A DNA stretch of 64,000 nucleotides from Gautieria morchelliformis (Eukaryota > Basidiomycota > Agaricomycetes > Gomphales > Gomphaceae), in NCBI GenBank assembly GCA_015179125.1, contig WHVA01000547.1, positions 1-64,000 of the forward strand, read 5' to 3'. Each line of letters opens with the position of its first letter. The first letter of the stretch is position 1. The translations under genes and the position numbers were made by a program. Positions 17,772 to 47,050 of the stretch are shown here, piece after piece. The notes beneath the pieces are model-generated. The model was not told where the DNA came from and did no database searches. It saw nothing but the letters and a program-made list of their open reading frames with translations.

Positions 17772-18708
17772 CGAAATTCGATGGTTGACTTCAACGTCGA
17801 TGGGCGTCTATTGACTTTTTAGAGCTTTCTGGGCAATGTGATTACATAATCATGCTGATGATGATATATTAGAGTACTAGCCAATAGACCCGTGCTTCGC
17901 ACCGGGTTAGTTAAGGTTAACATTGCACATGGGTGAATCAAAGAATTATTTGGTGAAATGAAACTACATACATTAAATACAAATGGAAATACATATTTAA
18001 TCAGGCTTCAGCAACACTTCTTTGTTTACAATATTAGAAGTTTTGTTCCCCTCCCCTAAAGAACATGGACTCCGTTCCAATTAGTGCAACGCAAAACTGC
18101 CCATGGGAAAATGCTGCATATTGCAAGTCTATTCCTACCGTGCCCCTGTGCTGCACACCAGGATGACAGCACTGGGTAGGGACCGCCAGTGCAAGAGAGC
18201 TATGCTCTCTAGTTGGAGATTATAGGTTTTTCTTGTCCTTTAGTCTGATGTCATGTTGTGCCACCCATGGGTCCACTTAGATTAGTAATAGAGACTCCTC
18301 TTTCCTGCTCACTATCAGCAGTGTTTGTAGTTCTGCACAGTTCGTCACCACAGGGAGGCATCCCTCCTTACACCGGGGACCCATGGGATGAGCCTGAATG
18401 TGCTTGGACCACGGCTAGGGTGGATACCCATGGTTAGGTCAAACACATTGGGTAAATAAAACTTGGGATAAGTAAAATCATTTGGATAATTAAAACACAT
18501 CTTATCACAATTGAAAGTAGCTCTAAATAACGCATCAGAGTAGGTAATATCTCCACCCATTTCTCCCATATCTGTGTGCCCCTCATGGGTAGCATGTCCC
18601 TATGTATGGCATGTGTTCCCAGAGTGTAGTGTGTCCCGCAAGTATAGTGTGCATAGCATGTCCCCCATGCATAGTGTGTCTCCCAAGTATATGTGCATTA
18701 TGTCCCTT

Positions 18709-19353
18709 TGTTACGACCATGCATTTTCGACTTCTGACACTCAGTTCCGCCTCCTTTCCGACATCCCAATAATTCCGACAATCCCACCCCTTGTCATATC
18801 CTTTCTTCTTTCAACTCTATTACTTGGACCTATCAGATGCAACTCGCAGCACAGCAAGACCATATGACCGGCCCCTATTGTTCCATTATGTCAGATATGC
18901 TTCCCGTCCCCTTGTTCTTTTGCCCATTGTTCTTGACTCTACCCTACACCCCCTTGTAGTTCTTTGTTCTCAATTAGTTACTTACCCCATATATCTTATC
19001 TGACTTCCACTTTCTTTGGAATATGCTTAGTACTACCCCATTACCTGTTGTCTCAGCTCTTTGTATAAAAGCCCTCACGTATGCTCGTTATTCTGCAATC
19101 AGATAATCACCTTCAATACATGATTTCCTTTGCTCTATCTCCTGTTCTTAGCACAGTGAGTAGCGTAGCTCACCTCCGTCTCTTAGCCTTCCGCCTTCCG
19201 ACTTAACTCTTGGCCTTTAACTTACTTCGATACTTTCCGACTTTGGACTTGCAATCTGAAATACTTAAGAGGATAGTTCATTAGGGGTGCAACACATAAG
19301 TTGAAGCCACCGTCCTTTCGAATTCTGACTTCCAGAAATCACAATACATAACA
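18709..19353. repeat. solo LTR, 645 bp, with 5-bp target duplication
   Basis: Starts TGTTACGACC and ends ATACATAACA (TGTTA/TAACA termini), flanked by CCCTT at 18704-18708 and CCCTT at 19354-19358. It contains a TATA-like TTTGTATAAA near 19060. It is inserted in the CATGTCCC minisatellite, which resumes at 19354. No internal retrotransposon region remains. Related LTRs are at 33908-34800 and 37558-38492. Confidence 0.88.
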
Positions 19354-19499
19354 CCCTTGTGCATAGCATGTCCCTTGTTTGTAGTATGTCCCCATATGTA
19401 GCATAACCCTAAGAGCCTAAAAGTGAACTTATTGTAGGGGCAGAGAATGTCAGAGGGTTTACAATGGATAATAGAGAAATAGACTTACATTTTGCAAGC

Positions 19500-20515
19500 A
19501 GAGGCTGTTGTCATTAATTTTTAGCAAAGTCAAAGAAATTTTTTGATATCTATTTTGACAAATATACAGTATATATATACATAAAAAAAAAAAAAATAAC
19601 AATTAAAAACAAAGAGACACTGATCCTAATAAATATCAAAAAAGAAGGAGATATGAGAGCAAGAAACATACCACTTGCAGCCATGACACACAGGAATGGT
19701 GGGAGCCCTGAACCTGGGCTAGAAAAAAAAAAAAAAAAAAAAAGGAGGATAAAAAAGCGAAAACTTATTGCAAGAAATGTCAGAAAAAAATGCACCATAG
19801 GCTATGATGATGATCAAGAAAGGTGGGAGGAAATAAGAGGAGCAGGCCAGGCTGAAAAGCAGTCAAAAAGTGGTTAAAAAAGCGAAAATGTTAGAAGAAA
19901 TACCATGGACAGAAGCTGATCCTAATAAATGTCAAAATAACACAAATATGATAGCATGACACACATCAGATGCAGCAATGGCAGACAGGAAAGGTGGGAA
20001 ACACTGACAGGAGGAACCTGGGCTGAAAAGATGGCAAAAAGAGGATAAAAAAGCGAAAATTAGGGGAAGAAATGACTGATATGATAAAGAAAGAGCACAC
20101 AGGAGGCAGTAGTGATGACCAAGAAAGGTGGAGGAGGCAATGAGAGGAGCAACCTAAGCTGAAAAGAAGTCAAACAGAGATTAAAAAAGCGAAAATTACA
20201 GCAAGAAATAGCAATATTTACCATGGAGAGAAGCTGATTCTAATAAATATCAAAACACATGATAGCAAGACATACACCAGATGCACCAATATCAGACAGG
20301 CAAGGTGGGAGGCATTGAGAGAGGGGGCTGAAAAGAAGACAAAAAGAGGATAAAAAAGCGAAAATTATTGGAGGAAATGATAGATATGATAGGAAAAAAC
20401 ACACCAGAGCCAGTAATGACCATCAAGAAAGGTGGGAGGCAATGAGAGGAGCAGCCTAGGGTGAAAAGAAGTCAAAAGAGGATAAAAAAGCGAAAATATT
20501 AACAATATTTACCTG
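19500..20515. repeat. imperfect tandem repeats of about 140-180 bp in unit Z
   Basis: Each unit contains GGATAAAAAAGCGAAAA (near 19745, 19875, 20047, 20183, 20348, 20484), a poly-A or purine-rich part, and AAGAAAGGTGGGAGG. The run is A-rich on the plus strand and has no coding look. It probably forms the subterminal part of the non-autonomous Helitron. Confidence 0.65.
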
Positions 20516-20949
20516 AGGGGGCTGTAGAGAGACAGAGAGCCCCAGTAAGAGACACAGAAAGAGCCACAAAGCCAGACAGAGAGATAGCCAGCAACAGACA
20601 GAGAGCCAGCAGCATAGACAGAGAGCCAGCAGCAGACAGACAGATCCAGCAGGCACAGAGACAGTGGACAGGAGAGCCAGAGGTTGCCAGTTGGACCAGA
20701 GGAAATGGCAGCAGGAGGGTTGAGGGAAGGTGGGTGCGCGCGCGCAGCAACGTTGGACGCGAACCGGTCACGTGACCAGGAACGCTGCTTGGTCGCTCTG
20801 CGCCGCTCGCATTCAAACTCCACCATAGTAGAAAGTTGCGTGGTTTGTTTGCATCTTAGTCAGGATTATGTCAGCAGGACGTGCTGTTTTCATATAGTGA
20901 GGCCCACAACTGCCCCCCCTAGAACTTTATACTATTGACTAGGTGGATA

Positions 20950-20966
20950 CCCGCGCTTCGCGCGGG
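20950..20966 (-). repeat. Helitron 3'-terminal hairpin, unit A
   Basis: Perfect 7-bp stem with loop TTC, seven bases from CTAG. Matching hairpins: 27682-27698 (B, one wobble pair), 33719-33735 (C), 37371-37387 (D), 40911-40927 (E) and a bulged one at 17889-17906 (Z). Confidence 0.9.
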
Positions 20967-21735
20967 GGTGTAGGTCAAACACCTCGGTAAGGTCAAACAC
21001 ATCAGTAAGTCTAATGCATCAGTAAGTCTAACACATTGGTAAGTCTAACATATCAGTAAGGTCAAGTGCATTGGGGAAAATCACACGCACTTACGTCCTG
21101 CAGCAGATCACAGGTTTGTGCTGTGAGAACATTCTAGGTTCTCACTAGCGTGCGGACTTGTAACTGGACGTAGCACCGCAATGGCCTTCCTCCATGTATA
21201 ATTGTTTGCTCTTGGCGTGAGTAGCTAAACACCTTGAACGTGTTGCATACGCCACCATTCCACATACCAATAGCTCAACTTCCATTCCGCCCCTTTTTGA
21301 CCCTACGCCCTTGCGTTGCGAGGAAGGCCTGCGGGAAGCTTATTCTGCAAGCAAGACATCATTCATAAGTATCCGGAGAGGCGTGTAGAGTTTGGAGGCG
21401 ACGTTTGGTGCCTTCGGAATACGCTTCCAGCGGGAGGTCTGCATATTGTAATTTCGCTGCTGCGTCACCGGTGTATGAGGGTTCCCGGTGGGCGCGGAGG
21501 CGTGAAGGTGCGCAGGGGAAGATAATGCGGATGTGATACGGCTGGTCAGGGGCAGCCGCGGATGGAGTGCGTGGTTAGGATGCTGGCGATCAGGTAGGGT
21601 GGGAAGAGCCTGAGGGGGCCGGAGGAGGAACATGATGGATGCAGGCGTGTGGATGGCCGCGCTGTGCACTGTTCGCGAATGTGAATAGGCTCGCGCTCAC
21701 CATGACGTGGCGTATACGAAGATGGGTTTGAGAAA

Positions 21736-23043
21736 TCAAGGAGCTCTAAGTAATACATCTTTATATACAATGTTGGTTGTGTTCAAACCATCCTCAAGCA
21801 AGACCTTCACTTTGTTCCAGCTTGTTCCCCTTGAAACACCAACATACAACTGACCATGTCCAAACACTGGATATCTCAGGTCCAGCCCAACCGTACCCAA
21901 AGACTGTCCCTGAGACTTGTTGATGGTCATTGCAAATGCCACACGCACTGGAAACTGTCTCCTCTGCAGCACAAATGGTAATTCTCCCTCTGATGGTGAA
22001 ATGGTGATCCTGGGGATGAAAGCAGTATTTCCTGCACATGGACCTGAGATGATCCTGACCTCCAACACTCTATTCCTCATCCTCACCAACCGCAACCTTG
22101 TCCCATTGCATAGTCCTTGCTTCTTATCCAAATTGCGCAACATCATCAGAGGCACTCCAGGCTTGACTTCCAAGTGAGCAGGAGGAAGACTGCCCATCTC
22201 TATGGAATTCAGATACTCCACAGGATACTGCTCTGCAAAGTCGGTTTCCTTGACAGAATCTGCACAGTGGAAGACCTGAGCATCACCTGGAAACTGCCTC
22301 AACACCATGGAATTGATCTCATTGACCTCAATATTTCTGGGACAGAGGATGGCCCGCTCTAAAAAATAATTGTCCAGGGCAGGGATTGCATTGCCAATGC
22401 CAGGATATATTTCCTGGATCAGCTCTGCAATTCCAGGGCCACAAACCATGTGAGGAGGGAGTGAGAACGTATGATCTAGTGGGAGATCCTTTCCCTGACC
22501 CACATTCTGCAGCCATTCTGCAAACCTGGCTCTGTCAGGGTCATTTCTCACCCACATATTCTCTGTCAGATGGATGACCTTGATCTTTGGCCACAGATAT
22601 GACTTCTGAAGGGTAGCTCCCACGATATCCTCCTTGGAGCCTTTGGGGACAATTGGGAGAGTCTGCTGAAAGTCACCTCCAAAGGCAACTGTGATGCCAC
22701 CAAAGGGTCTGTCAGGCTGGTCAAGGAAATCCCTCAGTGTCCTGTCAATGGCCTCTATGGCATGGCGATGCTGCATTGCAGCCTCATCCCAAATGATGAG
22801 CCTGGCCAGTCTCAACATATCAGCCTGGTCAGAGTTCTTTTTGATGGAGGAGAGAGAGCCCTCATGGACAGGAATTGGAATTCCAAGCATGCTGTGAGAG
22901 GTTGTCCCATTAGTGAGGATAAGTGCAGCCATTGCAGATGAGGCTACAGCAAGCACAATGAGACTCTCTGCTCTACAGGAGTGGATTAGGGTGTTCCATG
23001 TGAATGATTTCCCAGCGCCCCCTGAGCCAGTGACGAAAAACAT
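21736..23043 (-). CDS. Helitron PIF1-like helicase domain (unit A)
   Basis: 435 codons from ATG 23041-23043 to a stop near 21736. Superfamily 1B DNA helicase that unwinds DNA during rolling-circle transposition. Motif I TGSGGAGKSFTWNTL (residues 5-19), motif II RLIIWDEAAM (about 80), motif III FGGDFQQTLPIVPKGS (about 125), LCNGTRLRLVRMRN (about 308), and motif VI-like [16 protein letters not shown] (about 380), then YVGVSRG. In an intact Helitron this is the C-terminal half of the Rep-Hel protein; here a TGA three bases upstream of the ATG separates it from Rep. All helicase motifs are present, so a stand-alone helicase might still be made. It is the best preserved of the three copies. Confidence 0.88.
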   Translation of the reverse strand: MFFVTGSGGAGKSFTWNTLIHSCRAESLIVLAVASSAMAALILTNGTTSHSMLGIPIPVHEGSLSSIKKNSDQADMLRLARLIIWDEAAMQHRHAIEAIDRTLRDFLDQPDRPFGGITVAFGGDFQQTLPIVPKGSKEDIVGATLQKSYLWPKIKVIHLTENMWVRNDPDRARFAEWLQNVGQGKDLPLDHTFSLPPHMVCGPGIAELIQEIYPGIGNAIPALDNYFLERAILCPRNIEVNEINSMVLRQFPGDAQVFHCADSVKETDFAEQYPVEYLNSIEMGSLPPAHLEVKPGVPLMMLRNLDKKQGLCNGTRLRLVRMRNRVLEVRIISGPCAGNTAFIPRITISPSEGELPFVLQRRQFPVRVAFAMTINKSQGQSLGTVGLDLRYPVFGHGQLYVGVSRGTSWNKVKVLLEDGLNTTNIVYKDVLLRAP

Positions 23044-23046
23044 TTG

Positions 23047-25179
23047 TCAGTTAGGTTTCCCCTGAGCATCTATGTCCAGTGCCGACCGTAATACCTGATC
23101 ATGCGCAGACCTTTGCCCCTCATTCAGCTTGGGAATCTCCTCATCAGCCTTCTGCCTCTCTTGAACAGGGTCAAAGTCCCTCTGCTCAGCTATGAACCTG
23201 TTTCCAATCAGGACCTCCCACTCGCCTACCACCCGAGGCATATCTTTAAAGCTGCTCAAGGACATTCCATTACGCTGAAGGAGTTTATCCAAGAGAAAGA
23301 GGCCAAAATCATAGACCTGATCATCCTGTGGCTCTTGGATATTGTGTCTGGTTTGGAGCCGATGTCTGAGATCATCACATATGTGCTCCTTGAAGGTGTC
23401 CCATAGTCTGTCAGGTTGTGAGGGAATGCAATGGCCAAGGATGGTGGCAAAGAGATGTCTGAGCTGAGCGCCTGTTTTCATGCCACTGGCTTCCTGGAGA
23501 CACAACCTCCACTCTTGATCATCCTCCAGAAGTCCCCTGGCAAGACAGGCCTCCTTGTAAGTAGCACATTGTATGCCATCCACTGTCCTAAGCTCCTCAA
23601 AGGATCTGGCCCCCTTGACCACCGTGAGGAGAGTGCGCAAATAAAATCTCTCTCCTGATTTTGGGCTTGCAAAGTGAAGGCGTCCAATGCTATATCCCCT
23701 TTGACGTGGTGTCCATACCCTTTCCTCTTTTTTCCAGGTAAAATGCTCAGGAAAATCCACATAGAGCACATCGCGTGCATGAGGGTAGGCAGCATTGGCC
23801 TCAAAGTAAGCCATGAGCGCTGTCTTTGACCCCTTGACCCTGTTCATGATGGTGAGCGGATCAGCATCAGGATTGAAAACGACTGATTGCTGGTCTTTTT
23901 CATGGACTGGCAGTGCCATGACTGCAGGCACCTGGGTGTGGATTTCCCGCTCCAGCAACCTCCAACAGGCCTCATGAGCACTGACATAGCGAGCGTCCAG
24001 GTACTTCTTTATCTCATCATGGTTGACACCAAACTCCATCGTGGTCCGATCGTGGCCCTTGTATAGATACTTGTGGATATACTTGATGCACCTCACACTG
24101 AAGGTGAATTCAAGGTTGATGTGACACCGGAGTTTGAGCAAGAGCAGAGGAGAGTATGGCACAACCCATCTGTTGTCCAGCATGTCACCTCTGACATTGT
24201 GCAGCCTTCCATCATTGCGACGACGATATTTTGGATATCCATCTACATTCACAATGGTCTCCTCACAGAATGGCTTTGGGAAGCCTTTCTTGCACTTGCC
24301 ATTTTCCATGCAGGGTGCATTTGGATTCATTTGTCCACAGGGACCATGTGTCATCAGCTCACAGACCAACTGGTAGAGGACAGGATGTGTCTCTGGATCA
24401 GGGAACTCTGCTGAAATCATAGAATCCACCTCATGTGGATGTTTGACCTTGGACTCCCTATCAAACCAGGTCAGCAGGTGCATGTGTGGGAGCCCCCTCT
24501 TCTGGAATTCAATAGTGTGAACGCAAGCGACAGTTTCTCCAAAGATCTTGTCCTTGACAATCAAGTCAATGAGGTATTTCTTTTTCAGGTGAAACACCCG
24601 CGACACCAGGTCAGGTCTGTCCTGAGCAGTTTGTCCAGGGAGCAACTCGGCCACTATCTCATCCCACTTTGGATTGGCAGTCATGGTAATAAATAAATCA
24701 GGGGGACCCTTCTTTGTTGTAATGGCCAGGGAGTTCTGGCAGTTTTGATTCATGTCCCGTGTACTTCCTTGAAATGTCGCAGGCAGAATGACTTTTATGC
24801 CCAAGCTGTTTGCATCTCCCATGTCATTGTCCAAGCCTCCATATGAATCTACCATCTGGTTATACTGCTCAGCACGCAGAGTGTGTTGATTGGCCCTGAT
24901 CCACCTCAGTCTGCTTTGCTCTGCAGCAGCCCAGGAGTCTACAATGTACTGCTGGAACAATTTGCCACCACGCAGGAGTGTTGTAGGTTCTCTCTCTCTC
25001 TGGAACAGACGATATGCATGGTACTGTATTTGGGTGACCTGGCTCCGTCGGTTTGGATTGGGATTGGCCTGCTGAACACGCTCTGGCTCATGATAAGGAA
25101 TACCTGGTTCCCATCCCAACTCTCCCTTGGGAAAGAGCAAGACATAGTGCAGAGAGGCATAGTTTGCATTGGTATCCAA
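23047..25179 (-). pseudogene. Helitron Rep domain (unit A), ends at TGA before the helicase
   Basis: 710 codons open, in frame with the helicase except for one TGA (GKPN-stop-QMFFVTG; copy E has a Gly codon there). The Rep nuclease nicks and joins DNA in rolling-circle transposition. The HUH metal site is at about residues 233-237 (KRGLPHMHLLTWF). The tyrosine motif is CIKYIHKYLYKGHDR at about 340. A Cys-rich segment (CMENGKCKKGFPKPFCEE) lies between them. The N-terminal extension is in another frame, because a base was lost at about 25213 (GAGCTGACAA here, GAGCTGGACAA in unit E). No native ATG is expected at 25179. Confidence 0.87.
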
Positions 25180-25184
25180 TACCC

Positions 25185-26743
25185 TTATGAAATGTCCACC
25201 TCTGAGCTGACAATAATATCCCTAGGTCCAGGGTCAATGCCATCTCCAGGAAGAACGACTGCAATCTCATCTGCAGTTGGGACATTATATCTCCTAGGAT
25301 CCCTGTGTTCCCTGTATGTGAGCCTTGCCTGGATGTCACCATTCTGTTCTTGAGCTCTGAGCCTCTCAGCTGCTTGTTTATATGTGCGCACATGAGGATT
25401 GCATAGCAGGAGCATTTCCTGCAAGTCTCCTATGATAGTTGGAGACAGACGCTCATTACGATTTTTTCTCTTTGCCAAAGCCAGTGCAGGATCATATATG
25501 TAAAGCTGGGCATACTTTGGATCGTCTTCATTGTCAGGGAGGAGAGAGCCATGGAGATGATACAGTTCACCCTGTAGCTTGAGCACATATGGACCACGAC
25601 CCTCCCGAAGCAAATCTTGGTCAAAGTTGGCCCCCACAGAAGTGAATGCAAACGCAGCATTATACTGCCTGATATTCTGGCGAAATCCTTTTGCATCAGG
25701 GTCCTGGCCTTCTAAAAGCTGTTTCAATGGCTGAGGGGGCTCTGGCAGGTCTTCCAGCTGCACCTTTCCTTCCATACAGCAATCACCAAACCTGGGCCGC
25801 ACATTTGAGGATTTCTGCAGACGTTCTGCCTCCAGTGTAATGCTCCACAGTCAGGGCAGGGAATAACCATGGGACCCAAATCATGACGCTGCACATCTGC
25901 CTCAATTATTCTAGAGCGACCAAGTGGAATAGGAGGAGGAGGTCGCTGAGGACGCTACCGAGGTATAGGGAGTGGCTGAGGAGGCTGAGGAGGTGCAGGG
26001 AGTGGCTGAAGAGGCTGAGGAGGTTCAGGGAGTGGCTGAGGAGGTGCAGGGAGCAGCTGAGGAGGCGCAGGGAGCGGCTGAGGAGGTGCAGGGAGCGGCT
26101 GAGGAGGTGCAGGGAGTCGCTGAAGAGGCCGCAAAAGCGCAGGGAGTAGCGGAGGCATTGGTCTTATTGCATTGGCCTGAGCACGCAATGCTGCCACTCC
26201 TGCAGAACCTACTACAGGAGGATTAGCTGCCTGTCTACCTCTTCCCAATTGCTGCAATATAGCAGACTGCTCAGCAGCCTAAGCACACAACTGTGCAATT
26301 CCTGCAGAACCAACCACAGGAAGATTGGGAGGTGGCTGTATCGGCTCCTGCCTGTATCTTCTCAAGGGCTGTGCTGCTGGTATTGCTGCTAACTGAGCAC
26401 GAAGGGCTGCCACCTGCTGTCCAGGACTGGGATTGGGAGGACGTGACGGCCCTGCAGGCATAAGAGGATGTGGTGGCCCCGCAAGGATAGGAGGACGTAA
26501 TGGCCCTGCAGCAGGTTGTTGAAAAGGATCAGCCGCAGTGCTTCTAGGAGGAGGGTGAGGGATGGCAAAAGGAGGTGGTGGAGGGGGTGGCTGGTTCCGA
26601 GCTCTGACAGCAGCCACAGCAAGGGCACGCGCTCTCCGATCAGTAGGCGACATCATACGACCCTCCTGCTCCTCCCTCGCCCTTTCACGCTCCTGCTGAC
26701 GATTTCTCTCTGGAGTAGAAGGATCCCTGAGAAATGCAGACAT
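25185..26743 (-). pseudogene. Helitron N-terminal region (unit A), broken
   Basis: N-terminal part of the same Rep-Hel protein. It begins MSAFLRDPSTPERNRQQE at 26743, a charged segment, then a Pro/Ala-rich region with short tandem PAPPQPL repeats (25970-26130). The Helitron N domain follows (25185-25802: FRQNIRQYNAAFAFTSVGA, then YLQ-like GPYVLKLQGELYH and IGDLQEMLLLCNPHV). Lesions relative to unit E: CAG to TAG near 26280, a missing base near 25846, and another near 25213. Confidence 0.8.
25965..26140 (-). repeat. in-frame proline-rich microrepeat of the Helitron protein
   Basis: About 15-27-nt units, plus-strand form GAGGAGGTGCAGGGAGTGGCT, coding (minus) PAPPQPL. Copy number and spacing differ between units A, B (32040-32220) and E (45280-45430), as expected of slippage. 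Confidence 0.75.
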
Positions 26744-26749
26744 AAGCTT

Positions 26750-27670
26750 AGAGGAACAATCAAGCTACCCCACTTCAACTTACATTTGCAAGCAGATTTT
26801 TCTTGGGCAAAGTCAGGGGAATTTATTAATTTCTAATTAAATCAATGTCAGACAGCTCACACCAGACCACAGAGAAATACATACATACCAAGGAAGGGAC
26901 AGGGAGTCTGTTTGTTAGGCAAAGTCACGGGAATTTATTAATTTCTATTTAAAAAAAAAAAAAAAAAAAAGTCAGATGGCTCACACCAGACCACAGACAA
27001 ATATATGTACCAAGGAAGGGATGGGGAATTTTTTGATGAAAATATCCAAGTCTTCTTTGGCTATCCAACTGGAATAATTCCAGTAAAAGGTCCTGGTCCT
27101 GGTCCTGGGGAGATGTCTTCTTCAGCCACCAGTAGTGCAAGTGAACACTGAAAGAACTGCAATGCAATTGTGGCTCCCTCTAAGGCAGCCTGGGATGACT
27201 ACCTGGCTCCTTAGCAGAGAAAAAGCTGCCCCACTGAAGGGGTCAACCCCAATAGTTCACTGCAGAGATCTCCCTGGGAAGAGATCTTTTGTGTACTACA
27301 CTATATAGGCTATCTATTAATTCACTCTCACGCAATTTTTATTCTATCTAGTAGTGGGCAGAGAGGAGAGGAGAGGAGGGTGGTGGTGGAGTGCGCAAAG
27401 CGGCAAAGCGGCTGGCTGCGCAGCAATCTGCTAGCGCAGCACTGCTTTGAGCGCCTGAGCCGGCAGACCGGCCTAAACCGCTCGCGGCTGCGCCGCTCGC
27501 ACGCTCCAGAACGCTGCGCAGCGCTGGAGCCGGAAGAGTGGCGCAAACCGCTGGTGGGGCTTGCGGCTGCGCCGCTCGCGCGCTCCCGCTGACAAACTAA
27601 TGACCAAGCATTGGTCAGCATTGGTCAGCGCGCCCACAACCTCCCACCATGCTACTTTCACCTATAGGAA
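26750..27670 (-). other. 5' noncoding part of Helitron unit A
   Basis: Two copies of a AAGTCA..GGAATTTATTAATTTCTA block, an A18-20 run at 26951, a block with GGTCCTGGTCCTGGTCCTGG, a TATATA-containing stretch near 27300 and GC-rich palindromes near 27480-27580. A conserved CCCACAACCTCCCACC box lies at 27632-27647, near the outer end, and is present in all units. It presumably holds the element's promoter. No ORF was believed. Confidence 0.6.
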
Positions 27671-27853
27671 CTAGGTGGGTACCCGCGCTTCGCGTGGGGG
27701 TGTAGGTCAAACACCTCAGTAAGTCTAACACATCAGTAAGTCTAACATATCAGTAAGGTCAAGTACATTGGGGAAAATCAAAGTAATCAATTTCCATCAA
27801 GTAAAATGAAGTAAAACACATAAACCATATCAAGAGAAGTGGATATAACAAAA

Positions 27854-29160
27854 TCAAGGAGCTCTAAGTAATACATCTTTATATACAATGTTGGTTGTGT
27901 CCAAACCCTCCTCAAGCAAGACCTTGACTCTGTTCCAATTGGTCCCTCTTGATACACCAACATACAACTGACCATGTCCAAACACTGGATATCTCAGGTC
28001 CAGCCCAACCGTACCCAAAGACTGTCCCTGAGACTTGTTGATGGTCATTGCAAATGCCACACGCACTGGAAACTGTCTCCTCTGCAGCACAAATGGTAAT
28101 TCTCCCTCTGATGGTGAAATGGTGATCCTGGGGATGAAAGCGGTATTTCCTGCATGTGGACCTGAGATGATCCTGACCTCCAACACTCTATTCCTCATCC
28201 TCACCAACCGCAACCTTGTCCCATTGCATAGTCCTTGCTTCTTATCCAAATTGCGCAACATCATCAGAGGCACTCCAGGCTTGACTTCCAAGTGAGCAGG
28301 AGGAAGACTGCCCATCTCTATGGAATTCAGATACTCCACAGGATACTGCTCTGCAAAGTCGGTTTCCTTGACAGAATCTGCACAGTGGAAGACCTGAGCA
28401 TCACCTGGAAACTGCCTCAACACCATGGAATTGATCTCATTGACCTCAATATTTCTGGGACAGAGGATGGCCCGCTCTAAAAAATAATTGTCCTGGGCAG
28501 GGATTGCATTGCCAATGCCAGGGTATATTTCCTGGATCAGCTCTGCAATTCCAGGGCCACAAACCATGTGAGGAGGGAGTGAGAGCGTATGATCTAGTGG
28601 GAGATCCTTTCCCTGACCCACATTCTGCAGCCATTCTGCAAACCTGGCTCTGTCAGGGTCATTTCTCACCCGCATGTTCTCTGTCAGATGGAGGACCTTG
28701 ATCTTTGGCCACAGATATGACTTCTGAAGGGTAGCTCCCACGATATCCTCCTTGGAGCCTTTAGGGACAATTGGGAGAGTCTGCTGAAAGTCACCTCCAA
28801 AGGCGACCGTGATGCCACCAAAGGGTCTGTCAGGCTGGTCAAGGAAATCCCTCAGTGTCCTGTCAATGGCCTCTATGGCATGGCGATGCTGCATTGCAGC
28901 CTCATCCCAAATGATGAGCCTGGCCAGTCTCAGCATATCAGCCTGGTCAGAGTTCTTTTTGATGGAGGAGAGAGAGCCCTCATAGACAGGAATTGGAATT
29001 CCAAGCATGCTGTGAGAGGTTGTCCATTAGTGAGGATAAGTGCAGCCATTGCAGATGAGGCTACAGCAAGCACAATGAGACTCTCTGCTCTACAGGAGTG
29101 GATTAGGGTGTTCCATGTGAATGATTTCCCAGCGCCCCCTGAGCCAGTGACGAAAAACAT
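27854..29160 (-). pseudogene. Helitron PIF1-like helicase (unit B), one frameshift
   Basis: Same protein as the unit A helicase, with the Walker A (GSGGAGKSF), RLIIWDEAAM, FGGDFQQTLPI and NKSQGQS motifs. A single missing C near 29024 (GTTGTCCATTAG here, GTTGTCCCATTAG in unit A) splits it into 28930-29160 and 27854-29008. Unit E has the same missing base. Otherwise it differs from unit A at only a handful of residues, e.g. the C-terminal LLEEGLDTTNIV. Confidence 0.87.
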
Positions 29161-29163
29161 TTG

Positions 29164-32745: not shown

Positions 32746-32829
32746 ATGACCCTCTTGCTCCTCCCTTGCCCTTTCACGCTCCTGCTGACGATTTCTCTCT
32801 GGAGTAGAAGGATCCCTGAGAAATGAGGC

Positions 32830-35158: not shown

Positions 35159-35296
35159 ACCTCTAGGTGGATACCCATGCTTCACATGGGGGTGTAGGTC
35201 AAACACATTGGGTAAATCAAACTTGGGATAAGTAAAACACATCTCATTGCAATTGAAAGTAGCTATAAGTAACACATCAAGATAGGTAATGTCTCT

Positions 35297-36135
35297 ACAC
35301 ATGTCTGCATGTGCCCAAGTATAGCGTGCATAGCATGTCCTCCATGCATAGCTCGAATATGATGCTTATTGTGTCCTGGTTTGTAACATGACCCAACATA
35401 ACATTCCAAGTATAGTGTGTGTAGCATGTCCTCCATGCATAGTGTGTCTCCACATGTAGCATGTCCCCAAGTACAGTGTGCATGGCGTGTCTCACATGCA
35501 TAGCATGTCCCTGGTTTGTAGCATGTCCCCAAACATAGCGTGTCCCTAAATTATAGCATGTGTGTCCCCCATGCATAGCGTGTCCACATGTGTAGCATGT
35601 CCCTACATGTAGTGTGTGTAGCATCTCCTCAAGTAAGTGTGCAAAGTGTGTCCCCGATGCATAACATGTCCCCCAAGTATAGTGTGCATAGCATGTCCTT
35701 TGTTTGTAGCGTGTCCCCCCAAGTATAGCATGTGTAGAATGTCCCTTGTTTGTAGTGTTTTCCCCTGTAGTGTGTCCCTTGTTTGTACCATGTCCCCCAA
35801 GCATAGTGTGTCCCCACATATAGTGTGCACATCCCCATGGATCAGGTAGCTGCGTGTCCCCAAGCATAGCGTGTTGTCCCCTATAGCATGCGTTTGCGTT
35901 GTCCCCACGCATAACAGATGTTCCGCTGGTGTCTCCCATGCATGTCCCAAATTGACGTGTCCCCCATACATGCTCATGTAAGCATGGCATGTCCCCAAGC
36001 ATAGCGTGCGTGTCCCACCATAACATGCATGTCTCCATGCATAACATGAGTGTCCCCATGCATAGTGTGTGTAGCATGCCCCTCAAGTATGTAGCATGCC
36101 CAATGCATTGTAGCATATCCCCAAGGGCCTCAAAG
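35297..36135. repeat. CATGTCCC minisatellite, unit C
   Basis: Degenerate units of about 20-45 bp built from GCATAGCATGTCCCCAAG and TATAGTGTGTAGCATGTCC. Translation gives only MLCMGDTLCTLYLGD-like low-complexity strings. Also at 18571-18708 and 19354-19405 (unit Z) and 38985-39650 (unit D). Confidence 0.85.
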
Positions 36136-36159
36136 TGAAGCAAGCAGAGGCTGTTACTA

Positions 36160-36960
36160 CTTATTAAATTTTAGCCATGTATCAATATCTATTTTGTGAC
36201 ATATACAGACATAAATAAAATAGTCAAGGAAACCATATTTAAGCAGCTGCTGTCATTAATTTTTAGCAAAGTCAGGATTATCTATTTTTCGAAAAAATGT
36301 CAAGAAAATGTCCAGTACATGTACGCTGAAGCTGTTATTAATTTTAGCAAAGTTAGGATTATCTATTTTTCGAAAAATGTCAAAAAAATGCACTGTACAT
36401 TTAACCTGGAGCTGTTGTCAATTTTCACAAAGTCAGGATAATTTATTGATATCTATTTGCGAAAAAATGTCAAAAAAGTACAGTACATTGAAGCAGAAGC
36501 TGTGATTAATGCCCAGCCAAAGCCAGAGAAGCCCAGAGACTGACAGAGAAACCCAGAGCCCAGCCAAAGCCATAGTAAGCCAGCCACCAGTATAGCCAGA
36601 GAGGAGTGCCTGGTAAGCAGCTTTACAGTAAATAAAACAATAAAACAAACCACATTTAAAAGCAGAATCTATTGTCATTAATTTTAGAGGAAACTTATTG
36701 ATGTCAATTTTCGAAAAAAACCTGAAAATATTGATATTAAAACTTTTTTTCAGCAGTCTTTGGATGTTATTTAAATCTATTTTCGAAAAAAATCACAAAA
36801 ATATAATACACATGTGACAATACATATGATGAAAAAAAAAAGAACCAATAAAATTACCAACACAAATAAAATACATGGCAATGCATTAACAAAAAGATAT
36901 TACCTACCAATAGATAGCCAGCCTTCCAAAGCAATAGACATCCCAGCCAGCTAAAGGAGG
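36160..36960. repeat. AT-rich tandem repeat, Helitron subterminal block, unit C
   Basis: About 90-bp units with TTAATTTTTAGCAAAGTCAGG, TCTATTTTTCGAAAAAATGTC and AGTACATT. A comparable block lies at 39680-40330 in unit D, and shorter forms in Z, A, B and E. Confidence 0.7.
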
Positions 36961-37045
36961 AGACAGCAGACAAAGCAGACAGCAGACAGCAGACAGCAGA
37001 CAGCAGACAGCAGACAGCAGACAGAGCAGACAGCAGAGAGAGGAA
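36958..37045. repeat. CAGACAG microsatellite
   Basis: About ten 7-8-nt AGCAGAC units in unit C. A more degenerate counterpart lies at 40478-40580 in unit D. Replication slippage is the obvious origin. Confidence 0.85.
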
Positions 37046-37557
37046 TCGCCAGTTGGGCAGGTTCCTGGCGTTCCCTCCTTACCGTTCGGCCTTTATACCG
37101 CGTGCGCGTGTCGTGCACGGACCACGCTCGCATATGTGCGCTCTGGTCACGAACAGGTCACGTGACCGCTGCGCAGCGTTCTATGCTCGCGGCTGCGCCG
37201 CTCGACGCTGACCTTTTGGAACGCAAACGGTCACGTGACCATGCTGCGCAGCGTTCTTGGCTCGCGGCTGCGCCGCTCGTGTCCGATTGGCCAGCTGACT
37301 AAGGCTGACTAAAACCTGACATAAGCTCGACGCCCACAACCCACCGAGGCGCTTTCATACTAGGTGGATACCCGCGCTTCGCGCGGGGGTGCAAGTCAAA
37401 CGCCTCGGTAAGGTCAAACGCATCAGCAAGGTCAAATGCCTTGGGTAAATCAGACTTGGATAAGTCAAACACATTTGGATGAGAAAATTTCTTTTAGATA
37501 AGTAAAACACATCTTATTGATTGAAAGTAGCTCTAAGTAACACATCAAGGTAGGTAA

Positions 37558-38492
37558 TGTTATGACCATGCTGCTCGACCAACTCTGGTACCTTCATGCC
37601 TCCTCTGGCTCTATCCCGCAACGTCCACACTTTGACCTTTTGATTCCCTTGTTCTTTACTATTCACATACTTCCCCTTTTGACTCTATTCACTGGCATTC
37701 CCTACTTGACCCTTAGCATAGCAAGTCTGGAGCATCAGGAGATCCATTTGTTCCACTATCAATGTTACAACTGTTCCGCTCAACCATCTCCGCCATATCC
37801 GCATATCCTCCACACCACCTCTGCACTGCCTCTGCACCACCTCCGACTATATCCAGCAACATCCGCACCATCCGCAACCCTCTACCTCGACCCTTGTGAT
37901 TTCAGTACCCCTGGCCACCTCCAGATACCGGCCCCCGTACTCGACCCTGAACACAGCAACAGACCATTTCCGTAATTATGTTTCTTCTGATGCCTATTAT
38001 ACTTACTTGCCTTGTTCTTTGCCATTGTACTTACCCTACCCTGCACCCCCTTGTCATCCCATTGTTCCGCATTAGTTACTTGCCCCGTATGTCTATCCGA
38101 TTCCTGCACTCTCCGGAATTTGCTTAGTACCATACCATTACCTGTTGCTTCAGCTCTTTGTATAAAACCCCCTCATGTATGTCTCTGTTTGTGCAATCAG
38201 ATAATCGACTTCGATACGTGATTCCCTTCACACTGTCTCCTGTTCTTAGCACAGCGAGTTTTGCTAGTCTTGTCTCCTTCTGCTCTCGACCCTCTGTCCT
38301 CCACCTCTTCCCTACCTTTGATCTCCGACCCTCGAACCTCAACTCTCAGTACTCTGTTCTCGACTTCTGCCTTCTCCAATATCCGCAAGTCAATCCCGAA
38401 ATACTTAGGATGGTAGTTCATTGGGGGCGCAACACATAAGTTGAAGCCGTTGTCCTTCCAGTTCTGACCTCCGGGAATTCCGATACGTAACA
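37558..38492. repeat. LTR captured in unit D
   Basis: Homologous to 33908-34800, about 42 bp longer (extra segment near 38375-38410). Same TGTTATGACC/ATACGTAACA ends and same non-matching flanks GGTAA/ATCAA. Confidence 0.75.
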
Positions 38493-38984
38493 ATCAATTA
38501 GACCCACAGTCCCCTTGTTCTTTTGCCTATTGATTGTTCTTAGTTCTACCCGGCACCCCCTTGTAGTTCCTCTTGTTCCGTATTAGTTACTTACTCCATT
38601 TATCCTAGTTACTTTTGCTTGCACTGGAATTGCTTACCTCTACCTTCTGACATGTTGTCTCAGCTCTTTGAATAAAACCCAGTCATGTGTGCCTCTGTTC
38701 TGCAATCAGATAATTGACTTTGATATGTGACTCCCTTTGCACCGTTTCCTGTTCTTACCACAGCAAGTACTTGCAAGGCCTCTGTCTCTCTGACCTCTGC
38801 CTTCCAACTTGATTTCTGATATCCAACTTAACTCGATTCTTGAACCCTTACCTCTAGGGGATACCCATGCTTCACACGGCGGTGTAGGTCAAACACATTG
38901 GGTAAATCAAACTTGGGATAAGTAAAACACATCTCATTGCAATGGAAAGTAGCTATAAGTAACACATCAAGATAGGTAATGTCT

Positions 38985-39650
38985 TTACACATGTCTGCAT
39001 GTGCCCAAGTATAGTGTGCATAGCATGTCCTCCATGCATAGCCTCGAATATAGCATGCTTATTGTGTCCCTGGCCCACATATAACATGTCCCCAAGTATA
39101 GTGTGTGTAGCATGTCCTCCATGCATAGTGTGTCTCCACATGTTGCATATCCCCAAGTACAGTGTGCATGGCGTGTCCCACATGCATAGCATGTCCCTGG
39201 TTTGTAGCATGTCCCCAAACAAGCATAGCATGTCCCTCCATGTAGTGTGTGTAGCATCCCCCTCAAGTATAGTGTGCAAAGTGTGTCCCCAATGCATAAC
39301 ATGTCCCCCAAGTATAGTGTGCATAGCATGTCCTTTGTTTGTAGCATGTCCCCCAAGTATAGCATGTGTAGAATGTCCCGTGTTTGTAGTGTATTCCCCT
39401 GTAGTGTGTCCCTTGTTTGTACCATGTCCCCCAAGCATAGTGTGTCCCCACATATAGTGTGCACATCCCCATGCATAGCATGCTTGTCCCCATGCATAAC
39501 ATGTGTGTCTCCACGCATAACATGGGTGTCCCCAAGCATAGCGTGTGTGTCCCCATGCATAGCATGCATGTTAGTGTGTGTAGCATGCCCCTCAAGTATA
39601 GCATGCATAGCATGTCCCAATGGCATGTGTAGCATATCCCCAAGGGCTTC
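38985..39650. repeat. CATGTCCC minisatellite, unit D
   Basis: Same degenerate repeat as in unit C, shorter by several units. Confidence 0.85.
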
Positions 39651-41060
39651 AAAGTGAAGCGAGCAGGGGTTGTTACTTATCATTAACTTTTCGCAAACTC
39701 AGGACATGTATCAATATCTATTTTGTGACATATACAGACATAAATAAAATAGTAAAGGAAGCCATATTTAAGCAGCTGCTGTCATTAATTTTAGCAAAGT
39801 CAGGATTATCTATTTTTCAAAAAATGTCAAAATAAATGTTCAGTACATTTAAGCTGAAGTTGTTATTAATTTTAGCAGAGTCAAGATTATCTATTTTTGA
39901 AAAATGTCAAAAAAATGCACTGTACATTTAAGCTGACAATTTTCACAAAGTCAGGATAATTTATTGACATCTATCTGCGAAAAAATGTCAAAAAAGTACA
40001 GTACATTGAAGCAGAGGCTGTTATTAATGCCCAGCCAAAGCCAGAGAAGCCCTGAGACTGACAGAGAAACCCAGAGCCCAGCCAAAGCCATAGTAAGCCG
40101 CCACCAGTATAGCCAGAGAGGAGTGGCTGGTAAGTGGCTTTACAGTAATAAAACAATAAAACAAACCACATTTAAAAGCAGAATCTCATTAATTTTAGAG
40201 GGAACTTATTGATGTCTATTTTCGAAAAAAACCTGAAAAATATTGATATTAAAATACATTTTTTTCAGCAGTCTTTGGAAGGTATTTAAATCTATTTTCG
40301 AAAGAAATCACCAAAATATAATACACATGTGACAATACTATGATGAAAAAAAAAAGAACTAATAAAATTACAAACACAAATAAAATAAAATACATGGCAA
40401 TGCATTAAACAAAACATATTACCTACCAATAGAAAGCCAGCAAAGCAATAGACAGGCAGCCAGCTAAAGGAGGAGACAGCACCAGAGCAGACAGCAGAGC
40501 ACAGAGCAGACAGCGGACAGAGCAAAGACAGCACAGAGAGACAGAGCAGACAGAGCACATAGCAGACAGCAGACAGAGGAATCGCCGGTTGGGCAGGTTC
40601 CTGGCGTTCCCTCCTTACCGTTCGGCCTTTATACCGCGGCGCGTGTCGTGCACGGACCACGCTCGCGTATGCGCGCTCTGGTCGCGAACGGGTCACGTGA
40701 CCGCTGCGCAGCGTTCTATGCTCGCGGCTGCGCCGCTCGCGCTGACCTAATTTGGAACGCAAACGGTCACGTGACCATGCTGCGCAGCGTTCTTGGCTCG
40801 CGGCTGCGCCGCTCGTCCGATTGGCCAGCTGACTAAGGCTGACCTAAAACCTGACATAAGCTCGACGCCCACAACCCACCGAGCCGCTTTCACTATAGAC
40901 TAGGTGGATACCCGCGCTTCGCGCGGGGGTGCAAGTCAAACGCCTCGTAAGGTCAAAGCATCAGTAAGTCTAATCACATCAGTAAGTCTAACATATCAGT
41001 AAGGTCAAGTGCATTGGGGAAAATCAAAGTAATCAATTTGCATCAAGTAGATATCAGAAA

Positions 41061-42355
41061 TCAAGGAGCTCTAAGTAATACATCTTTATATACAATGTTG
41101 GTTGTGTTCAAACCCTCCTCAAGCAAGACCTTCACTTTGTTCCAGCTTGTTCCCCTTGAAACACCAACATACAACTGACCATGTCCAAACACTGGATATC
41201 TCAGGTCCAGCCCAACCGTACCCAAAGACTGTCCCTGAGACTTGTTGATGGTCATTGCAAATGCCACACGCACTGGAAACTGTCTCCTCTGCAGCACAAA
41301 TGGTAATTCCCCTCTGATGGTGAAATGGTGATCCTGGGGATGAAAGCAGTATTTCCTGCACGTGGACCTGAGATGATCCTGACCTCCAACACTCTATTCC
41401 TCATCCTCACCAACCGCAACCTTGTCCCATTGCATAGTCCTTGCTTCTTATCCAAATTGCGCAACATCATCAGAGGCACTCCAGGCTTGACTTCCAAGTG
41501 AGCAGGAGGAAGACTGCCCATCTCTATGGAATTCAGATACTCCACAGGATACTGCTCTGCAAAGTCGGTTTCCTTGACAGAATCTGCACAGTGGAAGACC
41601 TGAGCATCACCTGGAAACTGCCTCAACACCATGGAATTGATCTCATTGACCTCAATATTTCTGGGACAGAGGATGGCCCGCTCTAAAAAATAATTGTCCT
41701 GGGCAGGGATTGCATTGCCAATGCCAGGGTATATTTCCTGGATCAGCTCTGCAATTCCAGGGCCACAAACCATGTGAGGAGGGAGTGAGAAGGTATGATC
41801 TAGTGGGAGATCCTTTCCCTGACCCACATTCTGCAGCCATTCTGCAAACCTGGCTCTGTCAGGGTCATTTCTCACCCGCATGTTCTCTGTCAGATGGAGG
41901 ACCTTGATCCTTGGCCACAGATATGACTTCTGAAGGGTAGCTCCCACGATATCCTCCTTGGAGCCTTTGGGACAATTGGGAGAGTCTGCTGAAAGTCACC
42001 TCCAAAGGCACCGTGATGCCACCAAAGGGTCTGTCAGGCTGGTCAAGGAAATCCCTCAGTGTCCTGTCAATGGCCTCTATGGCATGGCGATGCTGCATTG
42101 CAGCCTCATCCCAAATGATGAGCCTGGCCAGTCTCAGCATATCAGCCTGGTCAGAGTTCTTTTTGATGGAGGAGAGAGAGCCCTCATGGACAGGAATTGG
42201 AATTCCAAGCATGCTGTGAGAGGTTGTCCATTAGTGAGGATAAGTGCAGCCATTGCAGATGAGGCTACAGCAAGCACATGAGATCTCCGCTCTACAGGAG
42301 TGGATTAGGGTGTTCCATGTGAATGATTTCCCAGCGCCCCCTGATCCAGTGACGA
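41061..42355 (-). pseudogene. Helitron PIF1-like helicase (unit E), frameshifted
   Basis: Readable as pieces 42231-42355 (Walker A), 41865-42212 (RLIIWDEAAM, end of motif II region), 41252-41947 and 41061-41297 ([12 protein letters not shown]). Frames break near 42225 (shared with unit B), near 42290, 42000 and 41970, and near 41310. Unlike units A and B it reads through from Rep (GKPNGQMFFVTG) without a stop, so this copy shows the fused Rep-helicase arrangement. Confidence 0.85.
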
Positions 42356-44010
42356 AAAACATTTGTCCATTAGGTTTCCCCTGAGCATCTATGTCCAGTG
42401 CCGACCGTAATATCTGATCATGCGCAGACCTTTGCCCCTCATTCAGCTTGGGAACCTCCTCATCAGCCATCTGCCTCTCTTGAACAGGGTCATAGTCCCT
42501 CTGCTCAGCTATGAACCTGTTTCCAATCAGGACCTCCCACTCGCCTACCACCCGAGGCATATCTTTAAAGCTGCTCAAGGACATTCCATTACGCTGAAGG
42601 AGTTTATCCAAGAGAAAGAGGCCAAAATCATAGACCTGATCATCCCGTGGCTCCTGGATATTGTGTCTGACTTGGAGCCGATGTCTGAGATCATCACATA
42701 TGTGCTCCTTGAAGGCGTCCCATAGTCTGTCAGGCTGTGAGGGAATGCAATGACCAAGGATGGTGGCAAAGAGATGTCTAAGCTGAGCACCTGTTTTCAT
42801 GCCACTGGCTTCCTGGAGACACAACCTCCACTCCTGATCATCCTCCAGAAGTCCCCTGGCAAGACAGGTCTCCTTGTAAGTAGCACATTGTATGCCATCC
42901 ACTGTCCTAAGCTCCTCAAAGGATCTGGCCCCCTTGACCACCGTGAGGAGAGTGCGCAAATAAAATTCTCTCCTGATTTTGGGCTTGCAAAGTGAAGGCG
43001 TCCAATGCTATATCCCCTTTGACGTGGTGTCCATACCCTTTCCTCTTTTTTCCAGGTAAAATGCTCAGGAAAATCCACATAGAGCACATCGCGTGCATGA
43101 GGGTAGGCAGCATTGGCCTCAAGTAAGCCATGAGCGCTGTCTTTGACCCCTCGACCCTGTTCATGATGGTGAGGGATCAGCATCAGGATTGAAAACGACT
43201 GATTGCTGGTCTTTTTCATGGACTGGCAGTGCCATGACTGCAGGCACCTGGGTGTGGATTTCCCGCTCCAGCAACCTCCAACAGGCCTCATGAGCACTGA
43301 CATAGCGAGCGTCCAGGTACTTCTTTATCTCATCATGGTCGACACCAAACTCCATCGTGGTCCGATGTGGCCCTTGTATAGATACTTGTGGATATACTTG
43401 ACGCACCTCACACTGAAGGTGAATTCAAGGTTGATGTGACACCGGAGTTTGAGCAAGAGCAGAGCAGAGTATGGCACAACCCATCTGTTGTCCAGCATGT
43501 CACCTCTGACATTGTGCAGCCTTCCATCATTATGAGACGATATTTTGGATATCCATCTACATTCACAACGGTCTCCTCACAGAATGGCTTTGGGAAGTTT
43601 TCTTGCACTTGCCATTTTCCATGCAGGGTGCATTTGGATTCATTTGTCCACAGGGACCATGTGTCATCAGCTCACAGACCAACTGGTAGAGGACAGGATG
43701 TGTCTCTGGATCAGGGAACTCTGCTGAAATCATAGAATCCACCTCATGTGGATGTTTGACCTTGGACTCCCTATCGAACCAGATAAGCAGGTGCATGTGT
43801 GGGAGCCCCCTCTTCTGGAATTCAATAGTGTGAACGCGAGCGACAGTTTCTCCAAAGATCTTGTCCTTGACGATCAAGTCAATGAGGTATTTCTTTTTGA
43901 GGTGAAACACCCGCGACACCAGGTCAGGTCTGTCCTGAGCAGTTTGTCTAGGGAGCAACTCGGCCACTATCTCATCCCACTTTGGATTGGCAGTCATGGT
44001 AATAAATAAA
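42356..44010 (-). pseudogene. Helitron Rep C-terminal two thirds (unit E), frameshifted
   Basis: Contains the HUH region (KRGLPHMHLLIWFDRESK near 43790) in frame piece 43563-43997, the Cys-rich segment, and the end of Rep at 42231-42959. Single-base losses near 44012, 43600, 43530, 43368, 43172, 43120 and 42965 break it. The tyrosine motif region near 43380 is shifted. Confidence 0.83.
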
Positions 44011-46150
44011 TCAGGGGACCCTTCTTTGTTGTAATGGCCAGGGAGTTCTGGCAGTTTTGATTCATGTCCCGTGTACTTCCTTGCAATGTCGCAGGCAGAA
44101 TGACTTTTATGCCCAAGCTGTTTGCATCTCCAATGTCATTGTCCAAGCCTCCATATGAATCTACCATCTGGTTATACTGCTCAGCACGCAGAGTGTGTTG
44201 ATTGGCCCTGATCCACCTCAGTCTGCTTTGCTCTGCAGCAGCCCAAGAGTCTACAATGTACTGCTGGAACAATTTGCCACCACGCAGGAGTGTTGTAGGT
44301 TCTCTCTCTCTCTGGAACAGACGATATGCATGGTACTGTATTTGGGTGACCTGTCTCCATCTGTTTGGATTGGGATTGGCCTGCCGAGCACGCTCTGGCT
44401 CATGATAAGGAATACCTGGTTCCCATCCCAACTCCTCCTTGGGAAAGAGCAAGACATAGTGCAGAGAGGCATAGTTTGCATTGGTATCCAATACCCTTCT
44501 GAAAGGCCCACCTCTGAGCTGGACAATAATATCCCTAGGTTCAGGGTCGATGCCATCTCCAGGAAGAACGACTGCAATCTCATCTGCAGTTGGGACATTA
44601 TATCTCCTAGGATCCCTGTGTGCCCTGTATGTGAGCCTTGCCTGGATGTCACGATTCTGTTCTTGAGCTCTGAGCCTCTCAGCTGCTTGTTTATATGTGG
44701 CAACATGAGGATTGCATAGCAGGAGCATTTCCTGCAAGTCTCCCATGATAGTTGGAGACATATGCTCATTACGATTTTTTCTCTTTGCCAAAGCCAGTGC
44801 AGGATCATATATGTAAAGCTGGGCATACTTTGGATCGTCTTCATTGTCAGGGAGGAGAGAGCCATGGCGATGATACAGTTCACCCTGTAGCTTGAGCACA
44901 TATGGACCACGACCCTCCTGAAGCAAATCTTGGTCAAAGTTGGCCCCCACAGAAGTGAATGCAAATGCAGCATTATACTGCCTGATATTCTGGCGAAATC
45001 CTTTTGCCTCAGGGTCCTGGCCTTCTAAGAGCTGTTTCAATGGCTGAGGGGGCTCTGGCAGGTCTTCCAGCTGCACCTTTCCTTCCATACAGCAATCACC
45101 AAATCTGGGCCGCACATTTGAGGATTTCTGCAGACGTTCTGCCCTCCAGTGTAATGCTCCACAGTCAGGGCAGGGAATAACCATGGGACCCAAATCATGA
45201 CGCTGCACATCTGCCTCAATTATTCTAGAGTGACCAAGTGGAATAGGAGGAGGAGGTCGCTGAGGACGCTGCCCAGGTACAGGGAGTGGCTGAGGAGGCT
45301 GAGGAGGTGCAGGGAGTGGCTGAAGAGGCTGTGGAGCTGCAGGGAGTGGCTGAGGTGGCTGAGGAGGAGCAGGGAGTGGCTGAGGAGGAGCAGGGAGTGG
45401 CTGAGGAGGCTGAGGAGGAGCAGGGAGTCGCTGAAGAGGCCGCAAAAGCGCAGGGAGTAGCGGAGGCATTGGTCTTATTGCATTGGCCTGAGCACGCAAT
45501 GCTGCCACTCCTGCAGAACCTACTACAGGAGGTATAGGAGCTGGTTGTAAAGGTGCCTGCCTGTGTCTTCCCAAGGGCTGTGCTGGGATAGGCTGTATCC
45601 CAGCAGCCTGAGCATGCAAATCTGCCACCGCTGTAGAGCCTACCACCGGATGTCCAATTCCAGCTGCCTGAGCACGCAACTGAGCAATAGCCGCTGAACC
45701 TACTATGGGAGCGGGCTGTACAGGGTCTGGCCTATTTCTTCTCAGGGGCTGTAATGGTGGGATAACTGCTAACTGTGCACGAAGGGCTGCCACCTGCTCT
45801 CCAGGACTGAGATTAGGAGGACGCGATGGTCCTGCAAGCATAGGAGGATGTGACGGCCTTGCAGGCATAGGAGGACGTGGTGGCCCCACAAGCATAGGAG
45901 GACGTGATGGCCCGGCCACAGGTTGTTGAAAAGGATCAGCGACATTGCTTCTAGGAGGAGAGTGGGGGATGGTAAAAGGCTGTGGTGGAGGGGGTGGCTG
46001 GTCCTGAGCTCTGACAGCAGCAGCAGCAAGTGCACGCGCTCTCCGATCAGTGGGCGACGTCATATGACCCTCCTGCTCCTCCCTCGCCCTTTCACGCTCC
46101 TGCTGACGATTTCTCTCTGGAGTAGATGGATCCCTGAGAAATGAAGCCAT
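43994..46150 (-). pseudogene. Helitron N-terminal region and Rep N domain (unit E)
   Basis: 718 open codons from MASFLRDPSTPERNRQQE at 46150. Charged N-terminus, Pro-rich region with PPMPARPS and PAPPQPL repeats, three VVGS-type repeats, then the Helitron N domain (CPDCGALHWRAERLQKSSN, FRQNIRQYNAAFAFTSVGAN, GDLQEMLLLCNPHV). The part up to SLAITTKKG belongs to Rep. A missing G at about 44015 shifts the frame and ends it. The CPDC..H..C-like cysteines (CPDCGALHW, FGDCCMEG) may form a small zinc-binding unit. This is the best template for the family's N-terminus. Confidence 0.85.
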
Positions 46151-47050
46151 AAGCTTAGGGGAACAATCAAGCTACCCCACTTCAACTTACATTTTCAAGC
46201 AGATGCTGTTGTTGTTAATTTTTCTTGGGCAAAGTCAGGGGAATTTATTAATTTCTAATTAAATAAATGTCAGATGGCTCACACCAGACCACAGAGAAAT
46301 ACATACATACCAAGGAAGGGATGGGGAGTTTGTTTGTTAGGCAAAGTCAAGCGAATTTATTAATTTCTATTTTAAAAAAAAAAAAAAATGTCAGATGGCT
46401 CACACCAGACCATAGAGAAATATATGTACCAAGGAAGGGATGGGGAATTTTTTTGATGAAAATATCCAAGTCTTCTTCAGCTATCCAACTGGAATAATTC
46501 CAGTAAAAGGTCGTGGTCCTGGGGAGATGTCTTCTTCAGCCACCAGTAGTGCAAGTCAACACTAAGAGAACTGCAATGCAATTGTGGCTCCCTCTAAGGC
46601 AGCCTGGGATGACTACCTGGCTCCTTAGCAGAGAAAAAGCTGCCCCACTGAAGAGGTCAACCCCAATAGTTCACTGCAGAGATCTCCCTGGGAAGAGATC
46701 TTTTGTGTTCTACACTATATAGGCTATCTATTGTTTCACTCTCACACAAATTTATTCTATCTAGTGGGCAGAGAGGAGAGGAGGGTGGTGGTGGAGTGTG
46801 CAGATGCGGCTGCGCAGCGTTCTGCCAGCGCGTTCTGCCAGTGCAACGCAGGGTTGAGTGCTGGAGCCGGAAGATTGGCGTGAACCGCCAGGGGGCTCGC
46901 GGCTGCGCCGCTCGCGCTCCAGGTTCACGCCGGTCACGTGACCGCTGTGCAGTTGGTGCTTGCGGCTGCGCCGCTTGCCGCTGACCTAACTTTTACATAA
47001 TATTATTTGTCAGCGCGCCCACAACCTCCCACCGAGCCGCTTTCATATAG
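46151..47050 (-). other. 5' noncoding part of Helitron unit E
   Basis: Same layout as 26750-27670: repeat block, poly-A (46375-46388), GGTCCTGGGG, TATATAGG, GC-rich palindromes including GGTCACGTGACC at 46932-46943, CCCACAACC box. No gene. Confidence 0.6.

Follow-up and report, generated by a model that had tools for sequence, protein, structure and literature searches.

Helitrons lying next to one another or in tandem have been reported or cited from bats, maize, silkworm, plant centromeres and Metarhizium. Here we describe an array of six Helitrons in the basidiomycete Gautieria morchelliformis, within the first 64,000 nucleotides of contig WHVA01000547.1 (this whole stretch being termed the window), and we consider it fairly probable that such arrays are stacks built one insertion at a time, with one family, family 1, mostly targeting the A/T at a resident Helitron's 5' boundary (a slash marks the point of joining or insertion throughout).

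The Helitron pair of the maize r1 region (PMC2267711) resembles our array in its head-to-tail arrangement, with the CTAG of one element directly before the 5' end of the next (a G/T junction). These workers judged the pair to be two separate insertions and discussed both insertion orders. Theirs is, however, a single case of two units, whereas Gautieria has hundreds of joins and a family-wide bias. Perfect head-to-tail junctions and tandem arrays are likewise described for Helitrons of Myotis lucifugus and Bombyx mori (cited in PMC2267711 and PMC4067079), where they were explained as tandem repeats or as bypass of the termination signal; the arrays considered here differ in having mixed units with independent neighbours. 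Maize Helitrons that favour sites near other Helitrons (cited in PMC12477314) share the preference, but it is described there as nearness rather than as base-exact end joining. Among fungi, Fusarium FoHeli elements and a three-copy tandem in Metarhizium acridum (PMC5148889) are again Helitrons in tandem, and one FoHeli4 lies 2 bp upstream of the 5' end of another FoHeli4, which we count in favour of 5' targeting; these are single cases with Helitron2-like ends, whereas our array has ends made of a hairpin and CTAG. Helraiser, finally, shares with the array elements an HUH Rep joined to a helicase, TC..hairpin..CTAG ends (the TC in units B, D and F), an A/T target and a head-to-tail junction in its circles, but a preference for the end of a resident Helitron is not seen in the consulted portions of the reports on it (PMC4778049, PMC5876387).

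Adjacent and tandem Helitrons are thus no novelty; what may be new is the base-exact targeting of ends as the main mode by which a family inserts, of which no report was found in the literature searched (most subscription papers lay outside the search). To our knowledge, no Helitron target has been described beyond the A/T dinucleotide and an AT-rich neighbourhood. In the HUH transposons IS200/IS605 and IS91 the target resembles the element's own cleavage flank, a likeness to the array Helitrons, from which they differ in being bacterial and in using a short target motif rather than the end of a resident element.

The array and its elements

The six units are arranged head to tail on the minus strand and, in its 5' to 3' direction, extend from position 47055 down to 17877. 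The array of end-to-end Helitrons is confirmed: at each of the five internal joins the hairpin and CTAG are followed directly by the T of the next unit, to the base. On the minus strand the joins read CCACCTAG/TCTATAGT between units A and B (40892..40907), CCACCTAG/TATGAAAG between B and C (37352..37367), CCACCTAG/TCTAAGAG between C and D (33700..33715), CCACCTAG/TTCCTATA between D and E (27663..27678) and CCACCTAG/TCAATAGT between E and F (20931..20946). A first-pass annotation of the window, made from the sequence alone, had listed six CTAG/T sites and a box shared by all units, and both stand: the last G of CTAG, in plus-strand coordinates, falls at 40900, 37360, 33708, 27671, 20939 and 17877, and the box (CCCACAAC, or GTTGTGGG when read on the minus strand) occurs six times, at 47018, 40868, 37333, 33672, 27633 and 20903, 19 to 30 bases inside each of the six unit 5' ends. 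Its 3' limit of 17877 also holds, but the 5' limit moves from 47050 to 47055, where unit A begins after a host A (GGTGTAAA/TTACACTATATG), so that the array occupies 17877-47055.

Coding and non-coding members are mixed, as that annotation had it, with coding sequence in A, D and E and none in B, C and F. Unit A (40900..47055), with its free 5' end, carries Rep/PIF1 sequence in broken frames; the non-coding units B (37360..40899) and C (33708..37359) are 81-90% alike; unit D (27671..33707) holds PIF1 and Rep-motif sequence, again in broken frames; and unit E (20939..27670) retains the HUH, double-tyrosine and Walker A motifs (PHMHLL, KYIHKYLYKG, GSGGAGKS) in one frame, which it alone does, the frames of A and D being split. 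The six are not all of one kind, however, as had been supposed: the non-coding unit F (17877..20938) ends in GGCTAG, followed by host T, behind a hairpin unlike that of A-E, and we assign it to a second family. Within C (35170) and B (38860) there is also a decayed internal 3' end, CCACCTAG or CCCCTAG ahead of AGGTAAGGG on the minus strand. The same internal end is found in L013, L014, L015, L017, L023 and L027, and it may record one old end bypass, perhaps the one that founded this subfamily.

By enzyme, hairpin-CTAG end and use of A/T, the array elements are canonical Helitrons. A Pfam search of the open frames found PF14214 in E and A and PF05970 in E, D and A. In E the Helitron_like_N frame (PF14214; 23047..25221, minus) aligns with Helraiser 7lcc (E-value 1.5e-163) and is followed by a PIF1 helicase frame (PF05970, PF21530; 21736..23046, minus); domains, motifs and the 7lcc match together give the HUH Rep with two tyrosines and the superfamily 1 helicase of a canonical Helitron. 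Rep relatives named among the 120 listed of 3239 come from mushrooms (Candolleomyces, Lyophyllum, Sphaerobolus, Trametes), a moss and flowering plants. Both families end in a 3' hairpin and then CTAG, in keeping with the canonical CTRR; that of the A-E type folds with a 7-bp stem and a 3-base loop (-9.6 kcal/mol, z -3.7). The 5' starts are TC in B, D and F and TT, TA and TT in A, C and E, and the first T of a unit may be part of the target. Insertion falls between A and T without target duplication, as seen at free 5' ends after A, at free 3' ends before T (T is the next base at family-1 3' ends without a 5' box in the fetched loci) and around a nested element in L027. Here a 3125-base element, TTCC..CTAG, splits a copy of F at A/T, and F, which differs slightly in repeat length from the F of the window, resumes on both sides. 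Judging from sequence, a coding element with F-type ends is probably present at C135: an F-type 5' end at position 3762 of L028 leads into sequence about 65% like E in DNA (L028:3762-10000), and C135:10523-10544 is an F-type 3' end.

End-to-end joins across the genome

The first-pass annotation called a mixed tandem array of this sort unusual, which the rest of the genome contradicts. The exact 24-base 3' end of family 1, the A-E type, occurs in 384 copies, and behind 327 of these the GTTGTGGG box follows at a distance of 16-46 bases; most 3' ends of the family are thus joined, base-exactly, to another 5' end. Random A/T insertion would be expected to give about 0.03 to 0.23 such joins among 384 ends if the genome is taken to hold 667 to 5000 resident 5' ends. 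The true joined share is probably higher than 327/384, because a count of exact boxes misses diverged ones. The first 26 listed family-1 3' ends, 25 of them fetched (C101 was left out), comprise 17 with the exact box, three with a clear but diverged 5' end, two with an uncertain one (C42 and C43), one nested in an F element and three without a recognisable 5' end behind. C42 and C43 look like a single duplicated locus.

In all of the 100 joins listed from the 327, T stands directly after CTAG. The 5' ends behind them are of several kinds (54 TCTAA, 16 TTAC, 15 of family-2 type, 14 TTC and 1 other), and one of them, C142, has its full start preceded by a partial one of 7 bases; 82 of the 100 listed family-1 3' ends reappear in these listed joins. 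Where two of the first 100 sites lie within 12 kb, the neighbours share a strand in 24 of 25 pairs. Family 2 behaves quite differently, with a 5' box behind only 15 of its 147 3' ends and none behind the other 132 (Fisher p 1.5e-60 against family 1).

Viewed from the 5' side, 69 of 100 listed TTCC/TTAC starts (of 393) are preceded by CTAG, as are 61 of 100 listed family-2 starts (of 128), shares that are somewhat overstated since the search pattern skipped contexts with T at -12. A precedes 27 of the remaining 31 and 37 of the remaining 39, respectively, or 64 of the 70 listed 5' ends that lack CTAG. One further start occurs in 146 exact copies and has CACCTAG directly ahead of it in 120 places, the two patterns differing at their right end. 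Free 5' ends, then, look like ordinary A/T insertions, and the joins are G/T.

Which end is the target

We infer that what family 1 targets is the 5' boundary of the resident element rather than its 3' end. A newcomer would land, with strong preference, at the A/T that the host A forms with the first T of the resident, and its own CTAG would then adjoin the resident 5' end to give CTAG/T. Cleavage at the A/T of a 5' end would belong to the ordinary transposition cycle of the transposase, and a resident 5' end to which this enzyme is bound could thus offer a place ready for integration; resident 5' boundaries would be used much less by family 2. In Helraiser the transposase reportedly cuts between the flank and the 5'-TC, with its determinants in the terminal 40 bp (PMC4778049). 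That so few family-2 3' ends are joined, yet 61 of 100 listed family-2 5' ends follow CTAG, is what one would expect were the upstream unit the later arrival and most of the targeting due to family 1. Two 5'-to-5' pairs also fit a 5'-boundary A/T that is used in both orientations, one of two different elements with 0 bases between them (C269:119318-119319; L055, L057) and one with 2 bases between (C139:16302; L045).

As pointed out for the two adjacent maize Helitrons, insertion before a resident 5' end and insertion behind a resident 3' end leave an identical join (PMC2267711). Newcomers of both families might instead enter CTAG/T behind a family-1 element, whose hairpin end they would target, a reading that we regard as unlikely, if by no means negligible. 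It would yield the same joins; in simulation it does better on the free family-1 5' ends (27% predicted when p is set to 0.72, against 31/100 seen), its match to family 2 being by construction. It requires, however, a G/T target, although listed 5' ends without CTAG so largely follow A, and it would place about half of the family-2 3' ends inside arrays (45-54% free), where 132 of 147 in fact have no 5' box behind. Nor does it yield the 5'-to-5' joins at C269 and C139.

Several observations nonetheless weigh against targeting of the 5' boundary or do not favour it. Precise cleavage of Helraiser is reported for the 3' end as well (PMC4778049), which speaks for insertion there. An age test on 3' ends along arrays, with some decayed internal ends included and L015 (a duplicate of L014) left out, found the upstream end closer to its nearest relative in 11 of 22 pairs and the downstream end in the other 11. 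Nor do units with a free 5' end prove younger than internal units (median nearest identity 93.9 versus 95.1, p 0.48, with L008, a mutated join, counted among the internal units). In a simple simulation neither targeting rule fits all figures: targeting of 5' boundaries, which does better on the 3' ends, predicts 15% free 5' ends in family 1 and 54% in family 2, against 31/100 and 39/100 seen. Finally, a genome search for an empty or allelic site of the array found none among the candidates scored, at most 40 per search.

Separate insertions and multimers

Whichever end is used, the arrays appear from sequence comparison to have grown mainly by separate insertions. Among 39 3' ends, a few of which are free and so have host sequence downstream, there are 33 pairs that share at least 97% identity over the last 400 bases, and in 32 of these the downstream sequence differs, with no alignment over 280 bases or at most 90.5% likeness; the sole exception is a duplicate contig pair. 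(The comparison left out L001, the window itself, and lost L005-L008 through hairpin variants; L002-L004, obtained by a junction query, are biased toward joins.) Near-identical upstream ends with different downstream neighbours imply that units mostly moved singly. Consistent with this, elements whose 5' ends are about 99% alike are found both free and behind other units.

The alternative is that bypass of an end, or rolling-circle read-through, makes or moves several units together. Helraiser reportedly bypasses its 3' end in about 11.7% of events (PMC4778049), the non-adjacent units A and E match at 97.3% over 4.5 kb, and the decayed internal 3' end of B and C, with its recurrences, may stem from such a bypass. 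We nevertheless consider multimers improbable, given the differing downstream sequences and the relations of the units themselves. In 400-base windows, adjacent-unit matches for B, C, D and E have medians of 92.1-94.5% where they match at all, below the medians of 97.3-98.5% for the best A-E matches outside the array in the fetched sample; of 59 A-E windows that match both, 47 have their best match elsewhere, 11 in another array unit and 1 ties, although the outside sample is larger than the array and favours outside matches. Units that differ in family and size, and resemble their neighbours this little, are not copies of one circle. Single-circle concatemers and block copying are thereby ruled out as the main route. 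The first-pass annotation had offered both repeated insertion at a Helitron end and read-through, with rolling-circle concatemers in mind; the first emerges as the most likely build, the concatemers do not explain the array, and read-through is plausible inside B and C, by way of the decayed internal end.

Misjoining of repeats at their ends during assembly is most improbable. The 122-Mb assembly is admittedly in 1113 contigs, and a single locus seems to be present twice, as L014 and L015; but the same join is found 327 times and leads into several kinds of 5' end, misjoins would not hold to one base, and joins on many contigs could not come from one misassembly.

Surroundings of the array

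Just downstream of the array is an open frame that encodes a G-patch domain (PF01585; 16907-17713, minus), its upstream edge 163 bases from the array 3' end. Upstream lies a repeat of about 490 bases (47494-47983) that is found in at least 39 other places at 91-98% identity. The window further holds a direct repeat (1-2298 and 3167-5454, 81.5% identical) enclosing three open frames without a Pfam match, a 525-residue open frame with DUF6570 (PF20209; 54778-56355, plus) and an open frame at 62966-63811 (minus) without a Pfam match, whose translation looks to us like the last part of a copia-type retrotransposon polyprotein.

Implications

On balance, we lean toward the view that the 5' end of a resident Helitron, whether of its own or of the second family, is the main integration site of family 1, which would keep Helitrons in growing stacks and most new copies clear of genes. 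If this is true, such a site-specific family would offer a natural system for the study of target choice by HUH transposases, and tandem Helitrons could be explained without concatemers. For annotation there is a warning as well, as what appears to be a single long repeat may consist of several separate elements stacked together. For the biology of the family, we would have a transposon that keeps out of genes because it homes to copies of itself.

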